This document shows positions 6,669 to 61,300 of a stretch of 64,000 nt of DNA, one piece after another. Every line of letters begins with the position of its first letter. Position 1 is the stretch's first letter. The stretch is from Trebouxia sp. TZW2008 (Eukaryota > Chlorophyta > Trebouxiophyceae > Trebouxiales > Trebouxiaceae): assembly GCA_002118135.1 (NCBI GenBank), contig BDIU01000269.1, positions 1 through 64,000 on the forward strand, in the 5' to 3' direction. Made by a program: the position numbers and the translations under genes. Below the pieces are notes generated by a model that saw nothing but the letters and a program-made list of their open reading frames with translations, had not been told where the DNA came from and searched no databases.

Positions 6669-9600
6669 TCAAGCTTTCTGCAGCTGAGGCTGCCATGTGC
6701 CTTCTACGGGCCTGCATGACGTAACAGAGTACAGGTGGGCACAAAAAGGCCACTGTCATGCTGTGCTTTACTGCAATGCATACATGTAGAACCTTTGACA
6801 ATGCCAATGTCACAATTGCTACATGTGCAAGGTCTCGCAACCTGTAGTGATGCAGAAGATGCAAGCGATGCAAAAATCTATGCCTCAATGCACTGCAAAC
6901 ACATGGGGCAGTCTGCTGTCACTTTGATCACATGCCATGTTGGATGAAATTTGAGAAGAGCACCTGAACTGGCGGGCATAGTCTAGCTTGTAAACAGCCC
7001 ACGCCAAAGTTCCCACAGCCTTGGCAAATATATATTGAAAGAATCGTGCTGTTCTCACACGCAATGCCAGAGTCCCAAACCTGTGGCATGCACTTGACTG
7101 GTGTGATCATCTTGCTTGCAACATTGAGTGGTGCTGTGCAGAAGTTGGCGCCAATTCAGATCACAATCAATATGCACAAACATGTCAATCTGAGACAGTT
7201 CTGGAGGTAAGTGTGAGCACATTGAAAAATACATTGTTATGTATGCAAGTGAACCAAGCATGCACGACACTTGCTTCACGTTCACCAACAGCACAGTATG
7301 TATGTGACTTTGGCGTCGGACTCAGTCAGCGCTTTACTGCTGCAGAGTCTGTCTATGCTGACTGATTTTAATTGCCAGTGATGCAGTGGCCGCATTGCAG
7401 CTGCAGCTTAATGCAGAGATGAATGGTGATGTACAAAGCATCTGACTGAGTAATCAAAACGGTATCACAACAAACAAGGAAGCAATATGATTGCAAGAAC
7501 GCACGCCACAGCATACACCCACAAAGCACAGGGATGCTGGCCTCAACATACCGTTTGTGCGCTCTATAAATGCGTATTGCCCGTTGATATTGCATGTTGC
7601 GGACTCTTGTAATAGCAGCATTCCAGCCAAATCTCTCCACCTCAGCTCTGGCTGCAGTTGCCATGGTTTCTCTAAAGGCTGGATCTGATACTAGCTTGTG
7701 TGTGCTCTGGATGGCTTGCTCGTAGTCACCAGGAGGGTACAGAAAGCCTACAGAAGCACAAAGAATTTGAACATAAGGGATGCAGCAGCAGCTCAGCATT
7801 TCTGAAGCTGCCTTGAGAGGGAGAAGAGGAAGAGGAAGAGGAAAAGAAGAAGAAGAAGAAGATGACCAGTAGAGAGCAGCACGTGGAATCCTGACACATC
7901 CAACTCATGAGTGTACAAGAAACAGCATTCTTGACTGTGCAATGAGACTGAACACAGGCTGGGTGATGACGCCAGTGAGTCACCAGTTGCCACTGGAAAT
8001 GCAGGAGCACTCATCACCAGTATACATGTGGAAATACAGCATGCTTCACAAGTTCTGTTGGCAATGAGGCTCAAAAGCACGCACACACAACTCTCAACTG
8101 GGCAGAGATGATGATGGCGCCACCAGCTGTCATTAGCAATGCAACCACGCTCAACACCTATCACTACACGGCCAGAAGTCAAGGTCACTGATAGTTTCAG
8201 TCGCAATCAGAGTCACCAAGGACTTGCTGGTGACCCCTGGCTGGGTGATGATGTCAGTGATAGAAGCAGCTGCCATTTGACAACACACATGCTTGAAGGT
8301 ATGCTTGACCGGGTCTGCTTACAGTCGGGTGCGACACCGTGACTTCAGTCGGGTTCATTTGGTACTGAATGCTGGGCCAGGCTCTGTTGTGATGGTGTGA
8401 GGCCACCAGCTACCACTCACAAAATATGTTTGAGTCATAGCATGCTTGACAAGTTCTGCTAGCAATCATATCAATCACATTGTCTGCGATCAGATTCATA
8501 ACACGCTTGCTGGTGACCGTGTTGTGCAATGATATTAGTGAGGTTGCCAGCTGGGGCTAACAATGCAAAACACACATGACATGTATGCATTTTGGAGTAC
8601 TTGTATACGTTATCAGATCAAGAAAGCGCTTACTGGTGACTCCTGGCTGGGTGATGATGTCAGTGAGGCCGCCGGCTGCCACCGCTACCACTGGCAGGCC
8701 TGAGGCCATGGCTTCTAGGGCTACAAAACCTAGAGTCTCCGTCTCGCTTGGCATCATGAAGATGTCAGCACTTGCATACGCTGCTGACAGGTCTGCGCCC
8801 TTGAGCATTCCCTGCGCAATACCACATGCTTGAGTGATCAGAATTGTACGCACGGCCCTCTGCATATGCAACGAATGTTTCTGCGTCTTGTCTGCAGCTT
8901 TGCAGTTGTCTGACGCCTCACTTGACAGCTGCAAAAAAACAATGATCTTCTGACTCGGCAAGTCTTTTCATGCTGCAATGACGAGTTCTACTCAGAATAC
9001 AAAGCCTGAAAAGGCATTCAAGCTGGTGCAAACAACATGAAGTCTTTGTGCATCATATTGCAATTGTGCTGAAAACTGACTGCGCAACAGCTAGCGCAGG
9101 GGACACGGGACCTGTGAGACATGTTATACCATTGTTCAAGCCTGACCAAATGCTTGCAAAATCTTGCTGACAGCTTGCATGCAAACTATTCCCTGCACAC
9201 AGAACAGTGCCAGCTAAAAGCAGTTCAATCTGTTTCATGCAGATGATGGGCAGGGAGGGTATCAGTGCAACATGAACCCAAGGTACCATACACTGCTGCC
9301 AAATGTGGCAACTGACAAATGTGGCAACTGAGGCCTGCAACTGGCAAATTACAGATGAGTTCACGATGAGGAAGACCTGCAAGCTGCAAACAAGACCATG
9401 TCTGAACGCCTATTCCAGCTGTGCGATGAGCATTGCTCTGAAGAGCTGCCCTGCTGCTTTGGCTGCAAGGAAAGCCATTCACAGTACGACTCAGAAAATC
9501 CTTGATATGCACACAGCATTTACCTCAGGCAGCATGTTTGACAGGCAGAGAGTCAAGTGATGGGCTGTGCTTACTGTGAAGGTGACAGGGGAGCCCTTGA

Positions 9601-16300: not shown

Positions 16301-17850
16301 CCTTCCTTCCTCTGCCCGGCTGCCTTTTGTTTCTTGTTGGTCGGTGTCCTTCTGCTCCTTTTGCTTTCAAGGCTGGCTGATGCTTCCACAACAACTTTGG
16401 CATCTACTAGCACTGACTCCCTCCTCAGAGCGTAAGCTTTACTTCATTTGCTCCTTGTTTCTTGCCTCCATGGCTGCTCTGCTGTTTGTTCGCCATTGAC
16501 CTTTGTTACTGACTGCAAATGTCAAGGCTAGCATTTGCAACAGCTCAAGCAGTCTGTGTGAATGACTGTGTTGGCCATGCGATACATCCCTACTACCTTG
16601 CCTTTCAAGCATTTTACTTGTTGGCTGTGGAACCTCCAATATGGCTATGTCCATTGTTTTGACTGCAGTGGTTCTTTGTGTGCAGAGGACACATGCTGCA
16701 ACCCTGCTGCCTTGCCTCCAAGGGGTCATATACCTCCTGATCATGTCAAGAAAACCGTTTTGTCTTTTGTGCAGAGGATACACGCTACATCCCTGCTGCT
16801 CTGCCCCCTCAAGAGGTCATCTACTTCCTGGCCACCACAGACTCCCAGAACCGCACTCTGGACGCCTCAACAGGCTACAACTACACCCTGACCTTCAACC
16901 TGCCTGTGCCAGCCAGCGCCTTCTGGTCTTTGACCCTGTACAACGCCACCACCCAGTACCTCATCAACAATCCTAGCACCGCTACACCATTGGTGACAGG
17001 GTGAGTGCTCATTTGATGAATGAAAGCACTGTGAATTATTTCACAGACTATGCTTTCTGGTCCTTGACCCTGTCAACCCAACGCCACCACCCAGTACCTC
17101 CTCAACAACCCAATGAACCGCTACACCATTGGCGACAGGGCAAGCTATCAGTTCATAAATAATTACATCATCAGTCATTTGACCACGTCTTCTTGTAGTG
17201 CGGCTGAATTGCATCTGTTACATGTTCACAATTATGTGTCTTACTTGTAACCCCTGCCAAGACCTGATCAAACAGTGAAATGTTGCATTTAAGGACAGCA
17301 GGTGCTGACCTGATATCTGCTTTTACCAGCAAAAGCACAGTGGCTGCAGTCTGTGCTTTGCGCAGAAGCTTTGCCTTCAGACCAAAACCTTCAAGCTCAA
17401 CAGCTGTATTTTAGCTGTTCTCTGCAATTTCCCTGCCTGCACTGTTGCATGCCTGTAACGTAAGCACCGTTTTGAAGCCATACATCTTGCTTGCACACTT
17501 GACAGATTTGACCTATTGACTTGCAACAGCATTAACACTCTGTTGGCATCAGCCTCTGTCTCAGCTCCATCTTGAGCACACTTCTGGACACCATTGTGTG
17601 CTTGCAGACTCCTGGGTTGAGCTACAGTGGCACCAACAATAACACACTGGTCCTTTTTGTTTCAGCCACAGCTCCAACCAACGGAACAGCCAACGCAGCC
17701 AACTGGTTGCCTGCTCCTCCTGATGCACCATTTGAGTTCATCCTCAGAACCTACGGCCCTCCTGCTTACGCCATTGCTGGTGGATATGCGCCCCCAGCCA
17801 TTGTGCGCAGTGCAGCCCCTACTCCTGCTGTCAGCACTGCTGGCAGATAA
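13356..17850 (+). CDS. Secreted DUF1254/DUF1214 protein, 9 exons, two apparent frameshifts
   Basis: Exons: 13356-13628, 13832-14020, 14183-14324, 14749-14916, 15432-15602, 15892-15927, 16055-16281, 16775-17000, 17608-17850. The ATG at 13356 opens a leader (TMLTYMLAALTLPAELRAQ) that fits a signal peptide. DUF1254 follows (IAWEFIVTYALPAIEKS, PNHDTIYSQLWLDLS, PKRYWIVPFLDAYY). The C-terminal DUF1214 part contains GTDYLLRA, AFWSLTLYNATTQYL and NWLPAPPDAPFEFILRTYGP. Many Asn-x-Ser/Thr sites suit a secreted glycoprotein. Two places break the frame by one base. Near 16174 the codon after VANN lacks a base, and near 16977 the Asn codon before RYTIGDR lacks one. Either the assembly has 1-nt errors or the gene is decaying. 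This domain pair is mainly known from bacteria; its biochemical role is not established. Confidence 0.8.
15940..17145 (+). repeat. Ghost exon copies within the DUF1254/1214 gene
   Basis: Introns hold partial copies of neighbouring exons. 15940-15992 resembles part of exon 16055-16281 (GCCAACA..GTGACCAAC). 16365-16438 copies that exon's end including its donor (CTCAGAGC then GTAAGC). 16565-16605 and 16676-16742 copy the start of exon 16775-17000. 17045-17145 copies that exon's end (TTCTGGTCCTTGACCCTG to ATTGGCGACAGGG). The 17045 copy keeps the Asn codon that the exon itself has lost. Confidence 0.8.
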
Positions 17851-19539: not shown

Positions 19540-22500
19540 TCAGATGAGTGCGCAGCACCTGACTTGGGAGAAGAGGTCAAAGGTGCGGTCTGTGATCCAT
19601 CTCAGCTTGCCCTGCATGCAAGACAGGCCTTCAGTGGTGCAGGCTGTGTTGAAGAAGGAGAAGAAGCTGCCATAGAAATGAAGGAGAAGAAGAAGAATCA
19701 GTGAAGAAGCTTGCCACTGAAAAACGAAGCAGAAGAAGAAAAGAAGAAAGGAAGAAGAAGAAAAAGCAAAAGATGCGACGAAGAATAAGAAGTTGCCACA
19801 GGACATCAGCATGTGTTGGTCGTCTGCGTATGCAGAAGGTCGAGCATGGAAAGGAGGACCGTGCCAGCCACATTCAGGACACGTGCTTGAATGCTTGAGC
19901 TGCATGCTGTCTCCCCTTGGTTGAGCATCAGGCGAATGCAGTGCAGACCGTACTCATGACAGAGTCACAAGGGCTGGCAAGTAGCAGCTGCTGACCTGCT
20001 GTATTAAGTTAGAGATCTGCTGCAGTGCAGTGCCATCGGGCTGAACCCGCATGAACTTGTACTTGGGGCCTGCACCCTTCTTATTCTGCTCCAGACTGCA
20101 ACAGCAAAGTCCTGCCTGTGCAGCTGAATCAGTGTTGGATGCCTCAGCATGTGATGCAGTTTCATGAAGTGTGTAGCATTGACTGCTGGTCTCACAAAGC
20201 ACAGCTTTGTATCTGGGGCCTGCATCCTTCCCACTTTTCTCCAGACTGCAACAGCAAAATCATAGCTGATATCACTGAGAACAGTTCAGACTGTGCCTAG
20301 GGCCTGCACCCTTCTCACACTGCTCCAGGTTGCAACAGTAAGACTGCAGCTGATGTGACTGAGAAAGCTTCATCTTGTGCCTAGGCCCTCACCCTTGTCG
20401 CTCTGCTTCAGGCTGCAACAGTAAGACTACAGCTGCACATTGCAAAAACGTTGCATACTTCAGCATGCGCTGCAGATCTACAAAGCATAGCTTGCTTGAC
20501 TTGACACATGTCAGGTGCCAGTTCAACAACAAACACAGCCTCACTTTCTCTTGCCGCATGGGACAGCATGGGAGGAATTGTCAAGCCATGACACGACCAA
20601 GAGAAATTGCAAGAACAGAAGGGAGATGTATCTGTATTCAGGTAATGCAAGCAAAATGAAATGTATGCATTGTTGAGACATGTTGTTTTGCAATTCTGTG
20701 AGAGCCTCAGCAGCAGCCCAGCCTTGCATGATGTCAATGACACTGTGTACATGGACATGGCCTAGAGACATTATACTGTTGGTTGGCAGACAACATGGGT
20801 ATTAAGTTTTGTTTCTTTCAAGATTGTCACGCACAGCTTTCTTGCCACAGGTGATGCATTGGTGTCTGGAGAGCATGTGAATCTTGATCTTCTGCAAACT
20901 TAACAAGACAAACTCACTATGCCTTGGTGCGCTCTGGATCTGAACCAGTGTTGGAGATCTCAGTGTAGGCACCGCTCTTCTTCAGCAGTTTCTCATAACC
21001 CTTGACTGTGTTGTCTCCTGCATGTGTACATGTGGCACTCTTGAAGCTATGTCCTGTACAGTAAAACTGGCGTCTCAACACCAATCAGCAACCAAATGTT
21101 GCTAACCAAATTTACAGCAACTGACACCTCACTTGAGCATCGAGCAGTATATATGATGATGTGATGTTATGACACCAACAATGCATGCTTACGAGTACAA
21201 GAAAGCTCAAAACAGTGGATATTTGGCAGAGCAAAGCCTCCATTTTCTCTCTCTTCTCAGCATGAACATGCCTTTGTGAGTTGCAGTAGCAGACTCACCT
21301 CCCACAGAGTCAAAAATAAAGTCAAACATGGCGTCTTTGTAGAGCTGTGCAAAATCTTGTGACTTATAATCTACAGCTTCATCAGCACCAAGCTCCTGCA
21401 GACAACAGTGTCTGAAGGCACCACCACATTGCAGCGTGAAGCAGAACAGTGTTCAAATTTTGCCCTGCAGTCTGCTTCAAAATTCAGCCAGCATTGTGAA
21501 TGCGCTTGATCCTGATGCTCTTGGTCCTGTTGCATGCTTATGATCCAGCCCGCTCCAGCAAAGACATTGCATGCTCAATCAAGATACTGTATGGACCATG
21601 GGCAGCATGTGAGTTACAGCAATGACAACCCTAGAGCAGACTGAGTTTCTGAAAGTTCTCTATCACACGGAAAATCATAATGCATAAGCAAAGCAAGCGC
21701 CTGACACGTGTGGAGCAGAGCGGCGTGTGAATAGACAGAGGCAGACATACCTTGAGGAACTGCTGGTTGCTGGGCCCAGCGGTGGCCACCACATGTGCAC
21801 CCCTCACCTGCATGCATCATGTGTACATTATTGGTTGCAGCATGCAGCAAACAATGCAGCATCTTTTCAGCCTTTGCTACCCGGCACGCAACTGATGTCA
21901 AGTCAGCAGGTCCAATAGGGACAGCATGAGGGCCAGCAGTTGCCACCAAATGCGAACCCTTCACCTGCATGTGTTTATTGTTGGCTGACAAGCATGCAGC
22001 ATCCCATTCAGCGTATGCTGAGAGTCATGCAGTATATTGTCATCACTTGGTGGCAGGCATACAGGCATACAGGTGGAGGGTGTGCATATGGTGTATGTGT
22101 TCAATGCTGGCTGATAGGCACGCAGCGTGTTTGCAGCCTGTGCTGACAGGCATGCAAGATTGATGCCGAGTCAGCAGTTTGAGAAAGTGACAACGTGGGG
22201 CTCAGCAGCAGCCACCATGTGAGCACCCCTCACCTGCATCATGCAACCGTCGCCTGATGACAGGCATGCAGCATTCATTTGTCGTTTGCTGAAAGGCATG
22301 CAACATTCCTTTACCACAGGCATGCAGCACCCGTTCTACTCCTAACGACATCGTGCAGCACTCATGCATTGTTTGCTTACAGACATGCAGGTGAATTGTC
22401 AAGTCAACTCTTATCACTGCCGTCTATATGTCTTTGCCATGCTGCAGGAGCCGCATACAATGTCATATCTCATGCCCCTTTTGACAGCAATAGAGCTCCT

Positions 22501-24089: not shown

Positions 24090-27000
24090 ATGCAGGTCGC
24101 CCAAAGGCCGTTGCGTGTCGCTACGTTCGGGTTCGCCTGTGCGCCTTCTGTGCTTCGTTGTCGAAACCTCAGCTGGTGCAGAGCTGATCAGGTCTCGTTT
24201 GTGACATCATCGTCCCAGCAGGATGAGGTGGCCGCTAATCCTGGGGGAAGGTCAGCCTGGATAGCATTATGATCTCAGCAATCTTGCTCCTTGTGGTGTG
24301 CATTCTCATAACAGCTTGATGCGCTCCGTTGCAGACTTGTTCTCCTGGACGCTTTTGCGCTGCTTTTCCGAGCACATTTTGCCCTCAAAGACATCAAGAT
24401 GACCACAAAGACAGGACAAGACACTTCAATCCTGTTTGCCTTCATCCGGACCTTGCTAGATCTGCTGGAAATGCAGCCTGTGCCCACCCACTTTGCTGTT
24501 GTGTTTGATGCTGCTGGAATGACCTTCAGGCACGCCTCACCTGCTGTGTCTGCTTTGCATTGTGCTACCTTGACAAATCTTGCATTCCAGTGCACAGCTC
24601 CAACATACTGTTGGCTGTGTACACTCAAGTGGCACTTGAGGAAACAAGATTGCTTACAGACTAGTGCAAACAGTGAATGTGGTTGCTTCTTTCTTGTAAA
24701 TTGTGGTGCCCATCTGTTGTTGCATGCAGTGTGGCTGAAACAACATCACCTGATGATCCATCTGAAGAGTTTGTTGATGAGTCTGATTTTGTTCACACTA
24801 CCCCTTTGGCAAGACCTGCCCGCTTAGAGCACAAAAGCTTGAGGTATGCTGTTTTTCAGCAGATTAGACAAACAGTCCAAGCCCTTTCACACATTGGATC
24901 TTAGGCCTGTCATTTGCAATAGGATTTTTGCCCTGTGAACTTGTGCCATGTACTTTTTCTTCTGGCGCCAGAGTGTCACACTCAACAAACATCAATTGAC
25001 ACAGTGTCTGAACTCATGTGCACATTTCTTTTGGCACCCCATATAGGCGTGCTCGTGTGGCAAATATGGCTTACACAGTGGCTGTTACCCGACACCTCTG
25101 CTGTTGTTTTGTGCAGCATCATTGTTGCTTGGAGTGTGACAAAAGCTGTATTAGCATGCGCAATGTGGAGGCTGTTGTTGACAGGATGATGCTATGAACA
25201 TATCTTGAGATGAATATCAACCCACAAATTTCCGATTAGCCAAGATTTGTGGAATGATGTTGACCTCAGGATTTGCCCATAGTGTCATCGTGTCAACGAT
25301 GGTGACCGCACTGCTAATGCTGATACAGCTTTTGTCAAGAAGGTAGCTTGAGACAGCTCAGAAGGTACCTTGCCTCGCAAGCTCTGCAGATTTTGTCAAT
25401 TTTGTCACTGTGGTATTGTGCAGGCATGAGCTGTTTTCTGCGTACAAGGGTTAGAGGCTACCCACACCAGAGCCTGTCAGCATAGCCTTGAAGCAAGCGA
25501 GAGACCTGCTGCGCGTGTTGGTCATCCCATTTGTCAGAGCATACACCCTGAAGGGATGGGGCGGGGATAACTTGTCCCCAGCATTGCAACAGCGGATTGT
25601 TAGGTTGTGATGTTGCGTGCAGACATGAGCTGTTTTCTGGGTACAAGGGTCAGAGGCCACCCACACCAGAGCCCATCAGCATAGCCTTGAAGCAAGTGAG
25701 GGACCTGCTGCGCGTCATGGCAATACCGGAAATTGTTGTACCTGGTCTGGAAGCTGATGACGTGATCGGCACACTCTCCAAACGGGCTGTAAAACAGGGC
25801 TTTGACGTGGCCATTGTATCTCCTGATAAGGTTTGTGCTTGCTGACTGCTCTGTGTTTGACCCAAAAAAGCAGAACATCTTTGCCTTGTGGCACCACAGC
25901 AGGATGAAGTTCATGCTCTATGATATCACTCTGCGTTTGACAAAGAGAGCAAAAGCTGTGCTTGCTATTCCAGTCATCATTAAACCTGAACTGGAAGCTG
26001 AATGAAACGGTTGGACAGCGTTCCAATCAACAAGGTTTGTGCTCCCTCAGTTCCCTCTGTGCTTCACAAAAGGGGTGCTGTGGGGCCCACTACCTCAGCA
26101 TGACTTGCTGTGTCCTTGTATCACACTCATGTGCTACAAACCTTTGTATCTCTGTATTAGGCCGTGTATGCACTGGCAGAATTCGACCCAGTTGCTGCAC
26201 TCGCCCAAGAAGGGATACAAGGGGGCAATGCAGGAGCTCATGCTCCCCCATTGTTCCTCTGCGCTGCTGCAGGGCTGCTTTCACAGGCTGCACAAAGGTC
26301 ACCTGCGCGTTCACAGCTGAGGCCGCATTAGCACTTTCCTACCATGCTGAGTGACAAGTGTCTGCGTGCTGGTGCAGGACTTCTTCCAGTTGCTGCAGCG
26401 AGGCATTCAACTGCTGCCGCAGCCAAAGGAGGGGTGAAAGGACCCCTCAGCTTGTCTACATGACATCTCCTGTGCTCCAGTTTTGCTTCACTCCTGTTGT
26501 AGTCCTGTGACAGATCTGTGTTCTGGTGCAGGACTTCTTTCAGTTGCTGCAGCCAGGCATTGAGCTGCTGCGGCCGCCCAAGAAGGGGTACAAATGTGCG
26601 CTGCGGGGAGACTTGCTGCCCTACAATACAGTGTCCGTTCAAGCAGACTTCTGCACCACATTTCAACAGCCCATCCTGTACATACTGCCTAGACTGAATT
26701 GCTGTCCTAATGCAGGACTTCTTCCAGTTGCTGCAGCCAGGCATTGAGCTGCTGCGGCCGCCCAAGAAGGGGTACAAGGGGCCGCTGCAGGGGGGCATGC
26801 TGCCTTACGATTCACAATCTTTCCAGGAGGAGTGGAATCTGCAACCCATCCAGGTGTGATCAGCATACTGAGACACATGTGTTTATTATGTAGTGTTGGG
26901 AGGACAATTTTGATTGAAGCGGGACTTTGTTGTGTATGTGTTGTGGTGTGGCACTGCACAGTTAGGCGTGCAAAGTTTGACATCAGGCAGCCAACTTTGT

Positions 27001-34829: not shown

Positions 34830-34928
34830 TTGCAGCAAACGCCAGTTTCGGCCCTTGTAAACAGCAGCACGTGCCCTCAGCTGTGCCCGCGCAACTTGAT
34901 GCGGGCTAGGTCTCTGTCTCAGCATGCA
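34830..34928 (-). other. Candidate orphan exon (99 nt, phase 0/0)
   Basis: Bounded by a CAG acceptor and a CAA/GTAACA donor, this frame reads CMLRQRPSPHQVARAQ and on to VYKGRNWRLLQ, basic and open throughout. Phase 0 on both sides would let it follow the STPGR exon at 36052-36201, or it may belong to a 5' leader of the LITAF gene. No family match is recognised. Confidence 0.3.
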
Positions 34929-41046: not shown

Positions 41047-44000
41047 ATGGCAGATACGTCCAAGCCTTCAAGCTCGGACGCTGTCAATGTCGCGGTGCTC
41101 CTAGTCACGGATGGTGGAAGTCCACCCGCGGTGCAGGCTGGCAGCAACTACAAACCCCACAGAGCTAGATATACCAAAAGCATGCTGCGCAGTACACTCC
41201 AGCTCATGGGCTGCAAGTCACGTACAGCTCACAAGGTCTGTAGCACAGCCTGTCACCTCTGTCACCTTTCTGACAGCCCTACAAAATCACCAACACTGCA
41301 AAGCCTGTCACTTGTGTCATCTCCTTGCTGAACATGTAAGCTTCCCACAAGTGCATCGTCCATCACCTATGTCACTGCTCTTTTAGCACTGCAACATCCC
41401 TGCTGCACAGCCTGTCATCTCTATCAATTCCCCAGTGGTTTTACAATAAAAACACAACTGCCTGGCTCTCTAGGTGAGTGAGCGCACATATAGAGCTTTG
41501 GATGATGAGCTCAATGGAACAGGTCATCAGGCTCTACCTCAGTCTATGCATCCATTGCAGTCAAGGCTGCAACAAGGTCAGATGCTGCTGGGCACACCCA
41601 CACGGAATCTTTTTGTTTCTGGCTTGAGTGCTGACCTCATTTTGCATTGCATCGCATTGCATTACAGTGATATGCCATAAATCAATTTGCTTTCACATCA
41701 TCATGTTTGCTTTCACTTCATCACGTCCTCCACGAAAGCAATTGCTGCTAAGCCCAAATGCAGCTCCATGCTCGTGTCAGCAGGACAATTTGTAACGACA
41801 CAATCAGCGCTTCATTCAGGAGCACTCCGCCAAGTTGTTGTAGGCAGGGAAACCCACATGAATTTTGGCTGGCAGGGGCAAAGATTTTGCAGCCGGTACT
41901 GCCTGAGGCTGTTTGCAGGACTGCTGAGTAATGAACTCCTACAAACTGTCTAACTGCAAGTTCAAATGGATGCAGGTACAGGTGGGGCTACAGCGCTGTG
42001 CTGGCAGGAGTTTGAGCAGCTGGTGGTGAAAGCAGCTGGAAGCCTACACTGTGAAGCCTGCAGAGATCAAAGTGACCTTTGTAGCTGTTTATGTCACCAA
42101 TTCATGATCTTGACAAGAGCTCATAATGGCTGGGTGCAGGTACAGCTGGGGCTATAGCCCTGTGCCGGCAGGAGTTTGAGCAGCTGGTGGTGCAACAGCT
42201 TGAGGCCTACACAGAGAAACCTGCAGAGGTCCAAGATCTCAGGAATGCCTGCAGGTAACTAGGTCACCCCTGTTCTCAGGTTCCAACTTCCATATGCATG
42301 GCAGTGATGGCTTACACAGAGATGCCCACAGGGTGCAAGACCTCAGGAATGCCTGCAATTAGTCAGGTCACCCTGTGCTCAAATCATCACACTCACATGC
42401 TGGCAGGCTTGCTAGCTGCCCGCTTGGGCATCACAGCCTGCTCAGAACAAGTCATGAGTCCAAAGCCTGCTCACTCCTGCCTTTTGCCTGCTGCAGTATT
42501 CAGGAGCAGAGAAGCAGCACGGCAATCTTGTTAGCTGGCATCAGTGGCGCAGGCATACGCATTCTGGCAGGCTTGCTGGCTGCCTGCTTGGGCATCACAG
42601 CGCTTTCAACAGACACCATGATCAAAGGGCTGCTTGCGTAAATGCGACCAGTACTTTTGCCTGCTGCAGCAATCAGGAGCAGTGTAGCAGTGTTGCTGGC
42701 TGGCACAAGCGGCACAGGCAAAAGCACTCTGGCAGGCTTGCTGGCTGCCCGCTTGGGCATCACAGCTTGTTCAGAGCAAGTCATGTGTCAAAGCCTGCCT
42801 GCACACACTTCAATTTCATCTTTACCTGTTGCAGCAAGAGCAGAGGAGCAGTGTGGCAGTGTGGCAGTGTTGCTGGCTGGCACAAGTGGGATAGGCGAAA
42901 GCATTTTCAGCAGAGGTCGTGAGTTCAAAGCCTGCCTGCTCAGTCACTGACAAAACGAAACAAGTGTTGCCTGCTGCAGCATTCAAGAGCAGAGGAATCG
43001 TGTGGCAGTGTTGCTGGCTGGAAGCAGCGGCACAGGCACACACAGCCTGGCAGGCTTGGCCACAGCCCGCTTGAGCATCACGCCGCTTTCAACAGAGGTC
43101 ATGGGTTCCAAACTTGCTTACTCATTTCTATCTCTGCCTGCTGCAGCATTCAGGAGCAGAGGAGCAGTGTAGCAGTATTGTTGGCTGGCACAAGTGGCAC
43201 AGGCAAAAGCACGCTGGCAGGGTTGCTGGCTGCCCGTCTGGGCATCACAACCGTGCTGAGCACAGACAACATCCGCCACATGCTGCGCAGCTTTGCAGAG
43301 GAGGACAAGAATCCCCTGCTGTGGGCCTCTACCTATCAGGTGAGCAAAACTGATCGCAAGACCCTTCCAAACCCTCAGCGCCCCTGCTCGCACTACCACA
43401 TCTTTGCTTGTTCCTTGATCTTGCTCGCTGTTTGTGATAATGCAACATTTCTTTATCATCTTTGCTGAGGAGGATAGTAACCCCCTGCTGTAGGCCTCCA
43501 CCCACCAGGGGACTTATTGTCTGTCACTCCATATGTGCTGATGATCAAGTCTAGACCTGTGTAAACACACCCTGTTTTGTATCGTGACGTCTGTGTCAGC
43601 TCTTCACAAGATAACAAGCTTGTTGTAGATAAGTCACGCAACAATATTGTGCTGTTTAGCCGTTTCGAATCAGCAGTCCTGTCTGCAACTGCTGCACGCG
43701 TTGCTCACTGACTTTCACACCACAACAGATAAAACCAATAATGTGTTACAGGCAGGCGACCATATTCAGGTGTCAAGCTCAGGACAGGACAGCATGCCTT
43801 CAACAAGCTATGGCAGCTCAACAACTGAGTCCAGCACCCGCTGGGATGCCAAAAAGAGGGCTGTCAAGGTGATGCTTCTTGCTTCGAGCCTTGCAGAGTA
43901 TGGTCCCCAAAAGTGAACATTGATGTCCGCTTTATGATCTTGATTGCGAACATTACACATGTGTACCTGGAACAACTTCCTCGAAAAGCAGTGAACCTTG

Positions 44001-47000
44001 AGGTGTGTAGTTTCCAAGACAATGTCAACGTCTGGCCATCAGTACATAAATGCAAAAGAAAAGAAAAGTCTACGCCGTTAGGCGTCAAAAATGAGCCTCT
44101 GTCTAGAGAGGCAGCCCAGGAGTCAGTGCACTTCTGCAGTCCTGCAAATGCAAAACTGGTGATGAATGGGACAAGTGGCATGCTGCTGCAGATCCCGCTT
44201 CTGTCTTATGATGTTACAAAGCAAAAAAGGAGATGCTGATGGAGTCCCCATACCGGCTGGTCAGCAAATGCGCAGCACATCACAATCGCCTTTGCCTGGC
44301 AATTTGTGTTTCAGCCAATCGTTGTCCTATGGCAATCAGATTTGCAAAGCACAGAGCAAGACAAAAGCATACGCTTTGACAGCGTGCAACTGGAGCAGGG
44401 GTCTGCTTGTGGTTCTCAGGGTTACAAAGCGCAAATTGAGATGGTTAAAGCCTTGGAACGGCTGATCAGCAGCTGCACAATGCATTTTAAGCGCCTTCTC
44501 CCTTGGCAGTGTGCATCTGAGCTGGAAGTTGCCTTACTGTGTTCAGGGTCACAAAGTACAGAAGGACATGGTGATGAAGTCCTTGGACCGGCTGATCAGC
44601 AGCTGCGCAGCACACCACCAGAGCCTGGTCTGTGGGGGTGTGCATCCGTCCCGACATTGTCTGATAGTTTTCAGTATTACAGAGCACAGGGCAACACATG
44701 AGCCTATGCTGTGACAGAATGCGATTGAGATGACTGCTGTCTTGTGGCATATAGGGTTACAAAGCACAGAGTAGATGGAGATGGAATCCTTGGACCGGCT
44801 GATCAGCAGCTGTGCAGCAGGGCATGGGATCCTGGTCTGTGAGGTTGTGCATCTGAGTTTGGTGTTGTCTGGTAGCCTGCAGGTCAGGTCGTGAAAGCCT
44901 CTGCCGTGACAGCGTGTGTCTGATCCAAGTTTTATCTGGTGACTTGCAGGGTTACAAAGCACAGAGTGAGATGGTGATGGAGTCCTTGGACCGGCTGATC
45001 AGCAGCTGCGCAGCTCGCCATGAGAGCCTGGTCTGTGAGGGTGTGCATCTGAGCCTCAACTTTGTGGTGCAACTGATGCAGCGCCATCCAACCATTGTAC
45101 CATTCCTCATCTACATCTCCAATGAAGATAAGCACAAAGAGCGCTTTGCGGTCAGTCCACAACTGAAACTTTCAGTGCACCTGACTGTCAACCTTGCCAC
45201 TGACTGCTCTCCAAACTCTGACAGTTGATTTGAAGCGCCATGCAGTCAAGCCCTGTGTGCAGTAGAGTGCTGCGCTGTGTAGTAATGATGTGGCAAAGTA
45301 CTGCTCACTTTGTTCTTCAGCTTCTTGGTTTACTCAGGTGACAAACAAAGAGGATACAATGCAGCTAGGCTTGCATGATATACATCCAAAGAATAGCATA
45401 TAGACATGCATATACATAAGAATTATAGTTATAGCATGTACATATATAGATATTGATGTAGAGATAGATACAGATATACAGATATATACAGATATAGAGA
45501 TGTACAGCTATACAGCTATATATACAGATGTCCAGATGTATACAGATATGTATATATACAGATATACAGATATATTTAGATATAGATATAGCATAGATAT
45601 ACTGATATATAAATATACAGATAAATAAATACAGCATATATATAGATACGTGCAAAGATTTCATGCCCGAGGCGCTCATGCATCAATGACCAACCACAAG
45701 GCTCATCAAGTGCAATATACCAGTCGCACTGGCATGGTAAACCTTGGCCTGCTTTGAATATGCAGGAAATCAAGAGGAATGCCTGCTTGAGCCAGACAAC
45801 AGGCTGATTGCATGCGCTATGACAGTAGCTGCCATGACCATCGTCAATATGGCACAACATACTGACAGTCTAGTTGCTGGTGCAGGTGAGAGCCAAGTAC
45901 ATGACCCTGGATCCTGCAGCCAACAGATACGTCAAGTACATACGCAACATACGGACGATACAAGTAAGCCTCAGCTTCTTTGCGCGTGAGCTGCTATGCT
46001 ACTATGCATCAAGGCTTCAGTTCAATCTGTTTTCTGCAAATAGCACAATCCAGAACATAGGACAAGGGTGCGGTGTGCGACGGCTGCAAATGCACTAGGC
46101 AGCTGCCTCATCAGCAGTGGTTGGGCCATGACAGCTGTTACAAAACAGTCCTGTAAGATGATCGTCTGGCACAGTCAGCACTCAGCATGATGTAGTCATG
46201 CATCTGCTCCGTTTCATGCACAAAACAGCGTTACTCCTGCAATATCACTTTTTCTCAGAGTGATGCAAATGACCATCCTCTGAGCACAACAGGCAAGATG
46301 TGCGTGGGGTACAGGACTACTTGTGTCGCCGAGCAGACAAGCACCTGATTCCTAAAGTGGACAACACCAATGTGGACCGCAGTGTGGCCACCATACATGC
46401 CACTGTCCTTGCCTGCTTGCGTCACACCTCAAAGGTAACCCCTGTCCCTTCCTCTTGCTGCCTTTGTTTCACTCTACAGCGCACAGTCTTAAGGCACAGA
46501 TCTGCCCTGCATCTAGAACCTGTCTGCTTCTTACACAGCATAGGAAACAGGTTATGTAACACCAATGTGGACCGCAGTGTGGCCACCATACGTGCCACTG
46601 TCCTTGCCTGCTCACACCACATCTCAACAATATCCCCTGCCTGTTCACCCTGTCTTCCCTATTAAAAGACAGTACAAGTCAAGCCTCCTGTCAAAAGGCC
46701 AATACGGAAAGACTACGTGTGCCATAGTTCCCAATAACGGCCTGCCTGTTCACCCTGATGGTATAGGCCAGGCCAGTGCCCTTTCATATGTCAAAGCATG
46801 GTCCCCCTCCGTACCACCGTCTTGGCCTGCTCGCGCTACTGACTCAAGGTACAGTTACTGTATCCCAATGTATGCAATGCTGCAGAGTCATTTTGCTTGT
46901 CAATGTTGCCAAGCAGCTGTCAGCACTGTCTGTGGTGCATGAAAGGTTGAGCATTTGCTGGATGAAAGCAGCAGAACCTCTAAGCAATTGCCATTGCTGC

Positions 47001-47883: not shown

Positions 47884-47944
<61 letters not shown>

Positions 47945-49279: not shown

Positions 49280-49284
49280 GCAGA

Positions 49285-51035: not shown

Positions 51036-54000
51036 CTATTCTGAGACTGCAGTTGTCATGTTAGCTGCAGCTGGGTTCCAGCCATAAGTGTCTAAGAACG
51101 ATAGCATCACACCATTTGTCCATCCAAAACCAGTCTGCACAGTGTACTCTCCGCCAGCACCAGGGATGCCGGGAGTGATTGCGTCATACTTTTCCACCAT
51201 GTGACCAGTTTCTTGGAACCCCAAGTAGTTTGAATTGAGCCAAATTTGGACTAGCTTTTCCGCTTCTTGCTGTCCCTGATCCCCTCCATAAGTCATCAGG
51301 GCTTCAACCATAATGTCCTGTAAGCAAACGAGAAAATAGATGAGAGCACCTTTCATTTTCTGTTTGTTTGGTGAAGCTTTTCAGCCTCTTGCTGTCCCTG
51401 ATAACTTGCATATGTCATTACAGCTTCACTCATGATGTCCTGTTAGTAAGTAAAGGAAAACATAAGGGCAAATTTCCTTCTTTGATTTCAGCCTCTTGTT
51501 GTCCCTGATTATCATGCACATGTCGTTACAGCTTCAGTCATGGTGTCCTGCTCAGGAAAGCTCAGCACAACAGGACACAGACAGAATGTGTATCAAAGTT
51601 GCAAAACAATGTACAACAGGAATGCATGCCAGAATCTCACATCAACAGGACAATACTAAGAGGATCAGAGAGCGCCAGGCTACCTTTGCTCCCAAAAGCT
51701 GAAAACCCAGCAACTTACACTATGCTTTTCTTTTCTGTAACATGACAGACTTGCCCGTAATGCGGTAAGTACAACTGTTGAGAGCTGTTACAGGGTGAGA
51801 TAACAATGCCTGCCAGCTGATTCAAGCATGTTGTTTCTGTTTTGCTTTGGTTCACAGACTTGCCTGCAGAGGTGCCCAACAATTGGGAAGATCCCTCTGT
51901 TGTGAGCTGTCACAGGTGGCAATAGCAATGCCTGCTAAATAGGTCAGTGCAATGCTTTTGGTTGACATTCACTTGATTTGATTTGGATTTCTTCTTTTCC
52001 GCAGCAAACTTGCCTGTGTTGGCGCCCAACAATTTGGAAAGTCCCACTGTTGAGAGCTGTTGCATGGGGAGATAGCAACGCCTGCTCACATGAATGACCC
52101 ATATCTTTCTGTTGACATTCTTTTAATTTGTTTTGGTTTGTTTTCGTTTTTGTAGCAAACTTGCCTGTAATGGCGCCCAACAATTGGGAAAATCCCACTG
52201 TTGTGAGCTGTTGTAAGTGGAGGTAGCAATGCCTGCCGGTTGAATCAAGCCTGACTGGAAGAATGATTGTGTAACAGTCTCGGCTTGAGCGCTCCCCGCG
52301 TCGGCAATCCCAACCCACAATGGGATGTACTGCGACACATAGCTGATGCTATTGTTGTGCTGGCTTGCTGTCACTGGGCTCTGTGTTGTGTCTGCCATGA
52401 TTAGGTCAAACCACCTTCCTGTGACAATGCAGCAAACATGTCAGCGTGAGAAGCGATTGGATGTATTGCAACACATAGCTGATGCTGTTGTTGTGCTGGC
52501 TTGCTGTGACTGGGCTTTGTGTCGTGTCTGCAATGATCAGGTCAAACCATCCTCCTGTGACAACACAGCAAGCATGTCAGCTCAGCACAAATGTCAACGC
52601 AGCATAGGACAAAAAACAATGAATTGAGACAGCACAGCCAATGCTGTTTTTGGGCTGGCTGGCTGGCTGGCTAGCTGGCTGGCTGGCTGGCTGGCTTTGA
52701 CTGAGCTTTGTGTTATGTCTGCAATCATCAAGTCAAACCATCTTCCATCTGCCTGTAACAAAACTGTACACAAATCAGGTCAGTAAGCAGGTCAATGTGG
52801 CAAAAAAAACGCTGTGCTGTATTGCAATGCATCCGTGCCATAGCATAGATAAGCACAATCCCCTATTGCCAAGCGTCAGATATGGTGTAATTTGTACAAT
52901 TTATGAGCTACGGTATGTCTGCTGAATTCGCATGGAACTGGATTGAATGACTTCAGTTTACAAAATATGTGACTTCTCATGAGAAACAAAAAAGCAAATT
53001 GCCAATATCTCACCTGCTGTTTCATTGTACATCAGTGTGTTGATGGCCTCTTTCCTAGCTGCCGCGTAGCTTCTGAAGCTGCCTGCTAGGCTAGAATTCC
53101 CCATCTGATCAGCCAAATCTGCCACATTTGATTCCATTTGGTACAGGAAGGCATTGAGATCAGCCGGGATGATCTTGGTGGTTTGGATGGTTGTGATGTT
53201 GTCTGGGTTACTGAACCACCGAGATGAAAAATCCATTCCAGATTCTGCTCCAGATGCTAGGTTGTGCCACAGATTTGTCTGGTCAGGCTGTGACATCCCT
53301 TGTGCATTCATATAGTCTTCCCTGCATCATACAGTAAATTCTCTTTGAAAGGACACTCAATGTAAAGACAAATTCAAATGAATTTAAATGTATATTGAAC
53401 ATTTGACGTTTGAACATTGCAAACAGACGTACTGCAAGGATCAAATGCAGACATGCTGTGAAGGAAAAGAGGCTCACAGGTATGACTCTGGGCGTGGCGC
53501 AAACCAGTTTGCATAGTATCGGGAAAGGTTGTAATCCCCGCCAGCAGTGGCCACCGTCACCTGCTTGGGGGCAGCTGTCCAGTAGCTGTGCTCTGAAACC
53601 AGGAGGGGCAGGGCATAAGCCAGGAAGTCATCATCTTGTGTTGCTTCGTAAATGGCAAGCACCATGTTGCTCAGCATAGGCGGCTGACTGCACAAACAGC
53701 CAATGAGTCAGCACTTTCTGGAGACGTAAAGACCTCGATTGTCCTGACAAACGTCAAGCACTCAAATGTCTGGCACCGTCAGCAGCATGACCAAGAGTCT
53801 CATGCATGTTAAGAGTCACAATCTGTGAGCGCCTGCAGGGGACCCCAAGAACCTGCAAGATGAACACATAGAAGTCACTTCCTACTGGCACCGTTTGGAA
53901 CATGGCCGTGAGTCTTATGCATTTGTAAGCTGACACTTGTGAGCGCCTACAGGCTCTTTGTACACTCCTAAAAAAGAAAAGTCAACACATGCAAGAAAGC

Positions 54001-57000
54001 ACGTTCTACCAAGGTAGTAGACTCTGGCACCGTTTGGAACATGGCCATGAGTCCTATGCATTTGTAATCTGACACTTGTGAGCGCCTGCAGCCTCTTTCT
54101 ACACTCCTAAAAAAAGTAAAGTCAACACATGCCAGAAATCACCTTCTGTTGAGGTAGTACACCCTGGCACCGTTTGGAACATGGCCATAGGTCTCCACCA
54201 GAGAAAGAAGATTTCTGACTTCACTTGTGGCAGTGTCAGTCATGCCACTGACCAACAGACCCTTGACCACCCAGTAGCTGTCCCAGTAGTACAGCTCTCT
54301 GAATCTGTCTCCTGGCACTGCAGTGATTCCTGGTAGTGGCAGCAGGCTGTGCAGCTGTGGCTGAGTCAAGACGCTGTCATTCACCTGCAGGTAGAACATG
54401 ACTGGTTGCATGCTTCAGTTAATGTGTGTTTCTGATTGCTGCAAACAGACCCTGGACCTTTAAGCAGCTGCCTCAGCAGTACAGCTCTATCTCCTGACAA
54501 AGAATGTGCATCTGCGGCTCAGTCATCACTGCGTGATGTTTCTGAACAAGGCCACCTCATGGGAACAAACAGAGTCATGACATCCAGGCGGAACTCATGA
54601 CAAAGGTCTCCGCAAGTCATCGACAGCCAAAGCTCGTTCCTGAATAGCAGGGTCAGTTTATTGGGTTGAACGGGCTTGGGTTTTAGGGTTTGTTGTTGCT
54701 CACGGCTAGGAACTGAAAATTCAGCATCAAGTCATTTTGAAGACTTGCATGCCTCAAAATACAGGTCTTGCCATAGATCTTTGACAGCCAAGGCCCGTCG
54801 CTGAACAGCAGAATCAGTGCATTGGGGACAATGTGATCAGCGTCGCATATGGCCAGGGCTCAGAAAACAGCAAAAACGCAAAAGTCTTACGTACCTGACG
54901 ACATAAGTCTTGCCACAGATCAACATTTACAGCCAAAGCCCATTGTCTGATGTCAGGATCTGTCACGTTGGGCTGGATGCAATTGGTGTTGCGCATGGCT
55001 AAAGCTGAGGAAACAGCATCAAGTCATTCTGAAGAGTTGCATACCTCGCGATAAGTGTTGCCATAGATCATTGACAGCCAAGGCCCATTGCTGAACAGCA
55101 GGGTCAGAATACTGAAGTGAATATGGTCAGATTTACAAATGGTCATGGCTCAGAAAACAGCAAAAACGCAAAAGACTTACACACCTCATGACATGGATCT
55201 TGCAGCAGATTATCGACAGCCAAAGCCTACTGTCTGATGGCAGGATCTGTCACACTGGGCTGGATGCGTTTAGGAATGCACATTGCTAGGGCTGAGGAAA
55301 CTACATCAAGTCATTCTGCATACTTGCATACCTCACGACACAAGTCTTGCCACAGATCATTAACAGCCAAAGCCCATTGTCTGATGGCGGGATCTGTCAC
55401 ATTGGGTAGAAAATCCTCAGGCTCTGAAGAGAAGTCATCTGGCACAGCGTTTTCAAAATCGCTTCCCGCTGTTCCAAAATTGGCGGCAAGGAAGGCCTGT
55501 AGGGTCTGGTTGGCAGGAAACCCATTGGCCTCTTTTGGCAACGCATTGAAGCTAGCGTTGACCACAGCTGGGTCAAACAGCAAGGGCAAATCTCTACACA
55601 GCGCATTCCTGTTTGCATTGTGATATCTGTACACGGCGGAACAAAGACCAAATTTGGCATCAAAGACAGCGTTGGCCACAGCTGGATGAAACAGCAGGGG
55701 CAGATGCCTGCGTAACGCAGTCTTGTTTGTACTGTGGATCTTCTACACAGCAAATTACACACCAACTTTGGCATTGAAGCTGGCGTTGGCCACAGCTGGA
55801 TCAAACAGCAGGGGCAGATCTCTGGTCAGGAGCTGCTTTTTACTGTGAAACAAAGAAACCATCAAGACACATGTGGATAAACAACAACAGGAAGCAGGAA
55901 TGGAACAAATAAAGGAACTGAAAGAACAAAAAGGGAAGGAAAGACAGGACATACATGAAAGGGAATGAAAGAGAGGTTTACGATGTTTGGCAGCGTGATG
56001 GAACACAGCATATCAAAGGCCAACTGTGTGATGCATGCATTACAAACTGGCTGTTATTGACGGCAATCAGTTCTAATTGACAACAGCATGACACCTGTTG
56101 AAGCATGCGCATTCTGCTTGATAGCGTACAGGCAGGCCATAAGGGCTTTTGCATTTGCACACAGTATACATAGGTACATCCAATAAGCCTTAACGAAAAC
56201 TTGCATTTTTGCATGCAGCATGGCAGAACTGGCTGTGCTACCATTTCGAACTTCTTGCTTCTGTGCATCACAATGGACACGAGGTTTTAGAATGTTAACA
56301 GCGTAGCAAACTTGCGCTAAACAGGTGCTGAGTGCAGACACAGGTCATACAGGGATCGGACGAACTCACACAAAAGTCTTGGAATCGTTGAAGACAGCCA
56401 AAATTTCTACGGCCTGCTGCAGAGGCCCAGAGGTCCATATTGTGTCGCTGCCGTTGATGCTGCAACGACAACATGCAGGTCAGCATAATCTGTATCGTCA
56501 CTGGCAACGATGCTGCTGTGAGCAGATGCGACAGAGCATTGCCTACATGCCTGCTGTGCGCTAACATGACTGTGCGATGTGTCTTGCAGGCGCACGGCCA
56601 AAATGCAGCAGGTTCGACCATGGTTCAACAATGATGCGAGAAGACACGAATGATAGACGACGAACGCAGCGACCAAAGGGCCGGGCGGGGCGTAGCGCGC
56701 AGAGGGCCAAAGCAACAAGTATCCGAGCGAAACAAGCATATGCTTGTCAAGCGCTGCTCATGCAGTGAGACAGGTCCCAGCAATCTTTGTTATCATATTT
56801 GGCCCTGATACTAGACCGACAAGCTGCATTGCCTTCGGAGGCTTTGCAGTTCTTTGCACAGTGGCGTAAGACTGCCGATATTGCGACAACTCGGCTTCGT
56901 ATGAATACACGTGTTGAATGCATCCCTGAGCTGTAGTCACCTTGGTTGCGCCAGCACAACCGACGCCGGTAGCAGCAAACAGGCACTGCAGATCCAGAAG

Positions 57001-58342: not shown

Positions 58343-61300
58343 TCAAGCCTTCCTGGCCTCTTCTGTAACACGCCGAAGAAGGTCTGTCAAGGTGACTACT
58401 CCCACAGCTTGGCCCTGGTTGTTCACCACATACACTCTGTGTAGGTGATGCTCCACAATCTTGTCAATGATCTGCATTTAACAAAGAGCAGCTTTTCATT
58501 GATACGCATGCAGTAAAGAGCCGCTTGTCTGTGTCCAATGAAAACAGCCTCAGGTAATGACTGCTGTCTTATGAATGACCTGCATGCAACATGATTGACA
58601 ACATACACTCGGTGTAGATGGTGCTCCACAATCTTGTTACTGATCTGCAGCAACAAAAGCATTGATGTGATGGCAGATAGTTTGTGTGTCTCATGGCTTT
58701 TGTTGTCATGTGTCTAGCTTGGAAGCAAATTGTGAGCGTACCGTGGTTAAGGCTTGTACCTGACTGCATCGCGTAATCTCATGCGCATGGTCATATACAT
58801 GCAATGTGTAGCGTACCGTGACAAAAGTGTCCTGAGGGGTACATGTGACTAGGCTCTGCCCTACCATGTCACCTGGTCCAGGGTCCCTTTCTTGCCGCCT
58901 CTTGTGAGCAAATTGGGCAGCAGCGCTTGCCTGCAATAAAGTGAGCAGGTTGTGAGCATACTGTGGCAACTGTCTCTTGAAGGGAAGCCCTTGCCCCACC
59001 ATATCATTGGGGCTAGAGTGTCTCTCCTGCGGCCTCTTGTGAGCAAACTCAGCAGCAGCGCTTGCCAGCAGAACACCAAGCAAACTGAGAGTACAAACGG
59101 ACGAGAGCTTCTCCTGGGGATGAGGGGGGGGGGAGAAGGTGGGGAGAGGCAGGAAGGTGGGTGGTGTCTTGCACCAGCATATCACTTGGGCCAGGGTCCG
59201 GTTCTTGCTGCCTGATGCGAGAAAACCCGGCAGCAGCATGTGCCTGCAGAATGCTGGGCACATTGGGTGGTAGCAGAAGTTGTCTTGACAACATTGAGGC
59301 AGCAAAGCGGCAGCACATGCATGCAATGCACCAAGCACATATCAGGTAGCTGCACTTGCTGACAAAACAGCGACGCATGCTGCTCTTCCTGCCAAACAAT
59401 TGAGCGCATGGACTTGCAAAAGTGATGAATGGCTGCTTTTTGACAGCAAGGCAGCTTGATCTATACATTTGCCAGTTGACATGCTGGATCAAGAAAAACC
59501 ACCTTGACTTGCTCATGGTCTGCAATGCCCCAAAGTGTCAGCCCGTGCTCAAGCGCCAGGAATTGTCCAACAGACAATGCCAAACTGCCAACATTTCTTG
59601 CTGTTTGGGGGCCAAAATCTTGCTTTGACCAGTGCAGACTGGGCTCAACTTGACTTGCTGTAGAGCCACAAGTAGGCTGACTTAGGCTAGGGTCAGGGGT
59701 ATCGGGGCAATTTGGCTCACCTTGACTTGCTCATGATCTGCAATGCCCCAAAACTCTAGCCCATGTTCCAGGGCCAGAAACTCCCCAACAGGCAGCGCCA
59801 GACTGCCAAAATGCTCTGATTGTATGGATCTGAGGTCTGATGCGCTGAAGTTCCCTATGAGCTTTTGGCTGTCTGAGCCGTCTGTGATGGCGATTGCTGA
59901 GAGGCCTGACTGCCGCATGAGATCCAGGCACTGCAATCAAGAACCGATGTAAGGCAACAAATTTTCTGACTGTGTGCATCTGAGGGCTGGAACACTGAAG
60001 TAATAAGTGGGGTTGGGCTGTCTGAGCCGTCTGTGATGGCAATGGCTGAGATGCCAGACTGTCGCATGAGGTCTGGACACTGCAATCAAGGCAAAGACAG
60101 ATTTGAGGCCAAGGTGCTCTGACTGTATGAATGCAACGTCTAAATTGCTGAAGTTGCCAATGAGCTTCTGGCTGTCTAAGCCGTCTGTGATGGCAATGGC
60201 TGAGAGGCCAGACTGCCGCATGAGATCCCAGCACTGCAGTGCAGGCAAGGAACAACATCAGATCTGTGGAATCAGTAACCAGCGGAAAAGTGACAAAGGT
60301 CTATGTGATGACATGGCAAATTTTTGTGACTGCATTCTCATGAGTTTCAAAGCGCTGAGGTTACCAGTGAGCTTTTGGCTGTCTGAACTGTCTGTGATGG
60401 CTATTGCGGAGAGGCCAGACTGTCGCATGAGGTCCAGGCATGCAAGCATAAATCTCAACAGGGCATCACTGTATCCTTGAAATTTGATTTTCGTCATGCC
60501 AACAATGCTAGTTGTGTGCAGCACATGGCTGGTCTTGCTAGGCTGGCTTATGCTGGTTGGTACTACATGCATTACACCACAAAAAAATCAGCTCAAGCGG
60601 CAGAAACTAGTGACAACTGTCAGGACAGTAGCATGACTGTGCACCTCAACTGCAGGCGTTCTGGGCGGTACAGGGTTGACTTGTTTGCTCCGCCTATCAT
60701 AACTCGGCAGGAGCGCCATGTAGCAGCAGTGTAACTGATCTGACAAGGGTTTGCACAGGTGAGCAGAGTTGATACCTCAATTGCAGGCGTTTTGGCAACC
60801 ACTGACTTGATCTGCTTGTTTGCCCATCCTAGCTGTTGGGCAATCATAACTTTCAAGGCACCGTGGCTGTGCCGCTCAGTCATCACGTCGCCTTTCAGGC
60901 ACAGTTGCTTTGCCTCAGAGCCACAGTAACGGTGGCACTGGAGTTTTGCGATGCCGACAGAGCAGTTTCTTACCTCAATGGCAGGCGTTTTGGCAGGCAC
61001 AGACTTGATCTGCTTGTTTGCCCATCCTAGCTGTTGGGCAGTCATGCCTTTCAAGGCACCCAAGCTGTGCTGTTGGCGCTGTAGCCATCGCACCACATCT
61101 GATTGGCTGATGATTGTGGTGATGTGGCCGGATTTACTGAAGAGGCCAACTCTGTGGACCACGGTGCGGCTGTTTTCACCGCTGTGCACCTGCCATACCA
61201 GTTTCTTTTGTCATTCAGATGATGCTTAAACCATAAACAAATGGACAACAGATACAAACAGCTTTTATCATATCAGCTGCATTCCAAAGCATCTCTGTCA

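Follow-up and report, generated by a model that had tools for sequence, protein, structure and literature searches.

Introns of the green alga Trebouxia sp. TZW2008 hold decayed direct copies of neighbouring exon edges

We analysed the first 64,000 nt of contig BDIU01000269.1 of the green alga Trebouxia sp. TZW2008 (assembly GCA_002118135.1; hereafter the window) and found that its introns hold decayed, same-strand copies of the exon edges beside them, which we call ghosts. We consider it probable (about 0.72) that ghosts are the leftovers of frequent short local direct duplications that crossed exon-intron junctions and then decayed. The window contains no N and has a GC content of about 49%; the genome comprises 68.5 Mb in 527 contigs. 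Our wider sample adds 20 stretches of 10 kb from other contigs to the window, giving 264 kb or 0.4% of the genome.

Local direct repeats and exon-edge copies

Self-BLAST of the window (E<=1e-3) returned 80 same-strand and 2 inverted repeat pairs. The partners lie within 1 kb of each other in 79 of the 80 same-strand pairs and in neither inverted pair. Five Markov-3 shuffles of the window gave zero pairs at the same threshold, against the 79 local direct pairs observed, which bears out the observation made in a preliminary description of this DNA. The only inverted pairs involve 22728-22912 and 62092-62409 (89% identity over 54 nt and 69% over 131 nt); these segments are 39 kb apart and possibly represent a dispersed element.

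At least one local direct pair was present in 19 of the 20 stretches from other contigs. With low-complexity pairs filtered out and limits of 1.2 kb and at least 36 bits applied, the wider sample contains 278 direct vs 11 inverted pairs, and 10 of the 11 inverted ones sit in two loci (L005 and L013). Hence, the repeats are overwhelmingly direct and close together, and the proposed widespread habit of local direct duplication is supported. The commonest offsets are 125-175 nt (59 of 242 pairs), and most fall between about 70 and 400 nt. A unit near 150 nt would be of nucleosome size. Identity of these 242 pairs spans 65-100%, mostly 70-90%. Match length equals 0.85-1.3 times the offset in 26 of the 278 pairs; many matches are shorter than their offset.

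Trebouxia proteins, which are independent of our gene models, anchor the ghosts of two genes. We checked the exons of the window's trehalase and exonuclease by tblastn with Trebouxia and other green-algal proteins (matches of at least 22 bits). The best match of the window trehalase is a Trebouxia lynnae protein (82% identity across 77% of the query), and that of the exonuclease is a protein of Trebouxia sp. C0010 (60% identity). The T. lynnae protein gave 6 exon matches plus 11 extra partial matches, and the C0010 protein gave 5 exon matches plus 4 extra. All 15 extra matches copy an exon edge or start within about 7 residues of one, and every one of them sits in the neighbouring intron, oriented as its parent is; some contain stops. 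Copies thus lie next to their parent and on its strand, as first described, and decayed copies of the nearest exon edge are present in all eight genes named then. One to six copies per intron had been reported; 1 to 3 per edge are seen in these two genes.

Exons were predicted by a self-trained hidden Markov gene finder that started from generic donor and acceptor consensus sequences with GT and AG obligatory, and that sharpened its acceptor to TGCAG by itself during training. In the 264 kb it converged on 48 gene models, with 498 exons of median length 105 nt and 466 introns of median length 233.5 nt. The finder makes errors: some ghosts were labelled exon, and one exon (46315-46434) was ended too early. 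We found ghosts of at least 20 nt in introns of 29 of the 48 gene models and in 89 of the 466 introns, with 93 of the 498 exons copied; in the window, 8 of 9 gene models carry one. Ghosts are therefore common, and the suggestion that nearly every gene has them does not extend to the wider sample. At 80% identity or more, 4.85% of exonic bases (3597 of 74215) have a local non-exonic direct copy within 1.2 kb, and the inverted control gave 46 bases. Median intron length is 365 nt with ghosts vs 207 nt without, in keeping with the suggested intron growth, with the caveat that a match also finds more space in a longer intron.

Duplicated sequence accounts for 17.6% of the bases in exons, 15.0% in introns and 9.0% between genes and so is not confined to genes or exons. 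Exon-to-intron columns make up 29.0% of aligned bases vs 26.8% for pairs shifted randomly within their locus. Since these values are so close, exon edges are not a target at the base level, and exon-targeted duplication was rejected at that level. Intron-to-intron columns are likewise near their expectation (0.374 vs 0.377), and exon-to-exon columns account for 14.8% vs 10.2%. At the pair level, 165 pairs span a splice site vs 126.4 ± 8.2 expected, and purely intronic pairs are fewer than expected (44 vs 62.3 ± 6.5). This pair-level excess is partly predictable, since constraint on one copy keeps a pair recognisable over a longer time. Hence, copies that cross exon-intron junctions are present, as had been proposed, but without exon-edge targeting at the base level, and duplications also arise inside introns and between genes.

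We also considered the creation of new introns by duplications carrying AG/GT, with the donor in one copy and the acceptor at the same position in the other. Only 2 of 466 introns fit vs 1.1 expected, one of them being a gene-model error, and this candidate was rejected; the test would miss decayed old cases.

Which copy decays

When a tandem duplication crosses a donor, only the first copy keeps the exon whole, and the ghost has to be downstream; when it crosses an acceptor, the ghost has to be upstream. We examined this side rule in rows, each relating a repeat pair to splice boundaries. Removing rows whose second copy was at least 20% exonic by the gene models reduced 450 rows to 175, and removing those with more than one boundary left 77 single-boundary rows. 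These filters discard young ghosts that the gene finder labelled exon. Among the discarded pairs at 85% identity or more (e.g. L004 6478, L008 8998, L014 9217), several end within 10 nt of a splice site; these were seen by eye and left uncounted. The side rule is obeyed by 74 of the 77 single-boundary rows vs about 62% for shifted pairs, and by all 15 protein-anchored ghosts of trehalase and exonuclease. Over all 175 anchored rows, those with several boundaries included, 123 obey and 52 do not.

Ghosts show little sign of coding constraint. Between exon and ghost, 132 of 145 indels shift the frame, and third codon positions account for 42% of mismatches, where our estimate for one free and one constrained copy is 0.45. 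Exon-limited ghosts of at least 75% identity have 152 synonymous vs 200 nonsynonymous codons, a ratio that by our own estimate roughly fits the same pairing of copies. Splitting this set gives 75 vs 78 at 83% identity or more and 77 vs 122 at 75-83%; exon-limited counts depend on predicted exons. Hence, the frameshifting indels, third-position mismatches and codon counts indicate that ghosts decay, in essence, like neutral DNA, apart from a few that look more constrained. Together with the side rule, the indels agree with the idea that one copy is kept by selection and the other decays.

The duplication reading may be spelled out as follows. The genome would acquire many short direct duplications, mostly at offsets of about 70-400 nt and most commonly near 150, in exons, introns and intergenic DNA alike. 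A duplication crossing a junction would yield two copies of an exon edge; the copy still attached to the rest of the exon would remain in use, and the other would turn into intron and decay. The duplications most plausibly originate in the fill-in of staggered breaks or paired nicks, or in slippage, and they may then expand into small arrays, e.g. by unequal exchange.

Copies that end at splice sites and rival explanations

The ends of matches cluster at splice sites. Of 1112 match edges, 127 lie on the exon side no farther than 12 nt from a predicted site, vs 45.7 ± 6.8 expected; on the intron side there are 17, vs 45.4 expected. An intron overhang of 0-10 nt occurs in 40 of the 175 rows (all identities) vs 10.8 of 121.7 rows per replicate of shifted pairs. 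At 85-90% identity, 14 of 22 rows end in the interval from 8 nt short of the splice site to 10 nt beyond it, as do 3 of 4 at 90% or more. The effect becomes stronger with identity: among single-boundary rows, the match enters the intron by at most 12 nt in 13 of 17 at 85-90% and in all 4 above 90%, vs 15% of 13 rows below 75%. Copies had been described as carrying the splice site and some intron; this suits those that straddle a junction, and many of the best-preserved copies are nearly free of intron.

We simulated tandem duplication and decay with a constrained parent, a free ghost and a free intron, at two indel rates and over one age range, labelling ghosts by truth and not by the gene finder. 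About 10% of simulated pairs were exon-limited at 85-90% identity (31 and 40 detected pairs in the bin). Simple duplication and decay was thereby rejected as the whole story, and the original duplication idea does not account for the best-preserved copies ending at the splice site.

Several observations weigh against duplication and decay as we read them. The exon-limited share at 85-90% (13 of 17) far exceeds the simulated one, and the trend with identity is reversed. Support for ongoing duplication is thin, with 18 of 242 pairs at 90% identity or more. Where a junction has more than one ghost (35 of 116 junctions), the more distant copy is more often the more similar one (46 vs 24 comparisons), and a simple outward conveyor of ghosts is accordingly not supported. 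Finally, we found no gradient of mismatches from junction to interior, although conversion would predict one, and past the inner edge of exon-limited ghosts no residual similarity was found (1 of 43 above the random 95th percentile). These last two points bear on our leading explanation, a guess, for exon parts outlasting intron flanks in likeness: that exon and ghost would be repeatedly homogenised, by conversion or unequal exchange, after their flanks had diverged.

The flanks and inner edges of these ghosts were examined further. The intron-side flanks of exon-limited ghosts are near random (6 of 43 above the random 95th percentile). On average, however, a weak but significant similarity of the flanks persists past the splice motif (mean z 0.79, se 0.21, n = 22 at 83% identity or more; 0.63, se 0.24, n = 18 below). 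This speaks for an initial duplication with the flank included. Of the exon-limited ghosts, 10 of 18 at an acceptor and 11 of 20 at a donor retain their own splice dinucleotide; this is below the expectation from exon identity and may mean that live splice sites were selected away. As a set, the inner edges of 37 exon-limited ghosts have a splice-like signal no higher than random places.

Two genes illustrate the range of copies. A 99-nt exonuclease ghost (92% identity) consists of the last 6 nt of the intron and 93 nt of exon, with weak or nil flank similarity; its spacer and flank had no second match in a genome search that skips very common words. The 139-nt and 136-nt units of trehalase include intron flank and look like plain tandem duplications. 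Hence, both kinds of copy occur.

The crowding of edges raises a different process. Exon edges could be copied into the adjoining intron, or old ghosts rewritten from the exon, by a process linked to the splice boundary and possibly templated by RNA; we regard this as unlikely. If true, it would produce ghosts bounded by the splice site and fresher than the surrounding intron. In a narrower form, somewhat less likely again, a piece of exon edge bearing about 5 nt of splice motif would be copied into the intron next to it, with no flank, perhaps by RNA-templated or splicing-coupled repair. The exon-side edges and short overhangs, the lack of a second match for the spacer and flank of the exonuclease ghost in that search and the failure of the simple simulation all speak for such copying. 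The strict side rule, the weak but significant flank similarity and the flank-inclusive full tandem units of trehalase argue against it, as does the partly shared motif past the junction, which spliced RNA would not have.

That ghosts serve, or until recently served, as alternative or mutually exclusive exons seems to us very unlikely. Some high-identity ghosts do differ from their parent mostly by synonymous codons (7 to 1 at L005 4086; 6 to 3 at L012 2186), and the near parity of codon changes at 83% identity or more points the same way. However, the inner edges are not splice-like, so the copies as a set do not have two splice sites of their own; some contain stops, their indels mostly shift the frame and the 75-83% class is richer in nonsynonymous codons. 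Coding constraint is thus absent overall, and inner edges and codon positions led us to reject alternative exons as a general explanation. The second of these loci (L012 2186-2635) comprises a histone-like exon (Pfam Histone, narrowly under the cut-off) and, in the following intron, two copies of its 3' edge, for which synonymous codon changes outnumber the others (6 to 3 and 6 to 5).

An assembly artefact, by haplotype stacking or read errors, is hardly credible: although a 96-nt unit at L018 1211-1406 is duplicated with 100% identity over 100 nt (pair 1211/1307), and so is either very recent or an assembly effect, the broad spread of identities, the indels and multiple copies, a window free of N and parents that match proteins of other Trebouxia all oppose it. 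Equally remote are introner-like or other mobile elements, which would fit copies that lie in introns and are in some cases spaced, but not the confinement of nearly all direct window pairs to 1 kb, nor a 514-nt array segment that matches only itself and its neighbour genome-wide; three segments searched across the genome gave no dispersed copies (the search skips very common words).

Ghosts in individual genes and relation to known systems

Pfam matches in the window support the DUF1254, zinc dehydrogenase, CBS, P-loop kinase and SHIPPO/STPGR assignments, and for the SQD2 gene they indicate a glycosyltransferase. SQD2 and LPA1 are names from the preliminary description. The SQD2-like gene (minus strand) has a ghost of an exon 3' edge at 8223..8260 (parent 8629-8666; 95% over 38 nt, offset 406) in which the parent's donor GT reads GC; the glycosyltransferase match is nearby. 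Its gene model (2491-10921) is probably fused with an adjacent gene that looks transporter-like from its residues. In the DUF1254 gene (plus strand; Pfam E 1e-26), a ghost of an exon 3' edge at 17052..17140 (parent 16918-17001) shows 85% identity and two frameshifting indels. The zinc-type dehydrogenase or quinone oxidoreductase gene (minus strand; ADH_zinc_N_2) holds an 84-nt tandem array and copies of the segment 20057-20111 at 20207..20435.

The PolA-type 5'-3' exonuclease gene (plus strand) carries the 99-nt ghost at 25418..25516, a copy of an exon 5' edge with a stop codon, at offset 199 from its parent (25617-25715), an exon confirmed with Trebouxia and Elliptochloris proteins. Three more ghosts (26177-26263, 26375-26446 and 26529-26651, within 26177..26651) copy the 5' edge of exon 26713-26853 by tblastn with Trebouxia homologues; the gene finder labelled 26532-26630 exon. 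In the STPGR gene (minus strand; SHIPPO-rpt E 2e-4), exon 3' edges are copied at 36677..36705 (parent 36935-36963; 90% over 29 nt) and 37964..37995 (parent 38091-38122; 88% over 32 nt).

The P-loop kinase gene (LPA1; plus strand; AAA_33) contains an array of an approximately 164-nt unit with exon-edge copies at 42390..43264 (offsets 164, 329, 483 and 647), whose functional exon is taken to be the one ending near 43339. At 46558..46639 lies a ghost (88% over 82 nt, offset 195) that derives from the 3' part of exon 46315-46434; the end of this exon, where the gene model is wrong, was read by eye. A hexanucleotide array (TTGCTG, 21.7 copies, 94%) occupies 47884-48013 inside this gene model, in an intron by the model.

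In trehalase (minus strand), the 5' edge of the last exon (51039-51323) is copied at 51368..51442 by tblastn. Exon 52165-52419 has two ghosts of its 3' edge (51864-51932 and 52014-52082, within 51864..52082; unit about 150 nt) and two of its 5' edge (52460-52555 and 52687-52755, within 52460..52755; nearer unit 136 nt, 89% over 126 nt). The donor after this exon (52159-52170) reads CAG/GCAAGT and belongs to a GC-AG intron; its two ghosts carry GCAAG too. Two ghosts of the 3' edge of exon 54145-54387 lie at 53887..54085, in the 139-nt units that include intron flank (90% over 165 nt). The exon at about 55332-55592 has left three 3'-edge ghosts at 54753..55108 (self-BLAST and tblastn with Trebouxia proteins), one 5'-edge ghost at 55770..55880 (91% over 53 nt, offset 228) and a second, weaker 5' copy at about 55657-55706 (77%, offset 114). 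In the Trebouxia sp. C0004 trehalase record (P0004), low-complexity residues come straight after the exon ending CWAPLQ, and this run is probably intron read-through in the annotation.

The CBS gene (minus strand; CBS Pfam E 3e-11 for the gene model) has a ghost at 59500..59594 (parent 59718-59812; 80% over 95 nt) and two ghosts of an exon 5' edge at 60108-60238 and 60352-60448 (within 60108..60448; parent 59805-59939; 84% and 87%). A copy of an exon 3' edge at 60773..60872 (parent 60971-61070; 90% over 100 nt, offset 198) was excluded from ghost counts because the gene finder called both members of the pair exon.

Local duplication is already known as a source of new sequence. The 'doublets' of Thomas et al. 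2004 (cited in PMC2671141) are short local duplications, and in human, duplications that arise when repair captures proximal DNA average 162 bp with a median of 147 bp (Pace et al. 2009, PMC2671141). The Trebouxia pairs resemble both in being short copies of nearby DNA, but they are almost only direct at short range, often lie on exon edges and are apparently denser, density having been measured by a different method. In mouse and human cells, fill-in by CST/Pol alpha-primase at staggered breaks produces small tandem duplications (PMC8355091). Such fill-in, a known route to direct tandem duplication, or the repair capture of proximal DNA could have given the copies in Trebouxia.

Tandem exon duplication, including unannotated or degenerate intronic copies, has been described in PMC9013439 and with Exonize (PMC12343006). 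Exonic nucleotides with homologues at 80% identity amount to about 2% in human, 0.08% in fly and 0.06% in worm (PMC9013439); set roughly beside these values, which were obtained by another method, the 4.85% in Trebouxia leaves fly and worm far below. With Exonize, about 4-7% of vertebrate genes were found to have full-exon duplications; partial or intronic ones, which it also counts, affect more genes. As in those cases, Trebouxia exons are copied within the introns of their own gene; unlike them, the copies are mostly exon edges beside the parent. Intron gain by tandem duplication (PMC4974935; PMC2891723, which cites Gao and Lynch 2009) also starts from an exonic duplication of which one copy becomes intronic, but in Trebouxia it is existing introns that grow, and new AG/GT introns are not in excess. 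Among the best-ranked titles in the open-licence literature, we found no report of the ghost-exon pattern.

Annotation of such genomes may label ghosts as exons, as the gene finder did here. Ghost edges bounded by splice sites offer a test of sequence exchange between exons and their dead copies. If the density holds genome-wide, Trebouxia would be a natural laboratory for intron growth, with thousands of direction-marked duplications, each with the parent beside the copy.

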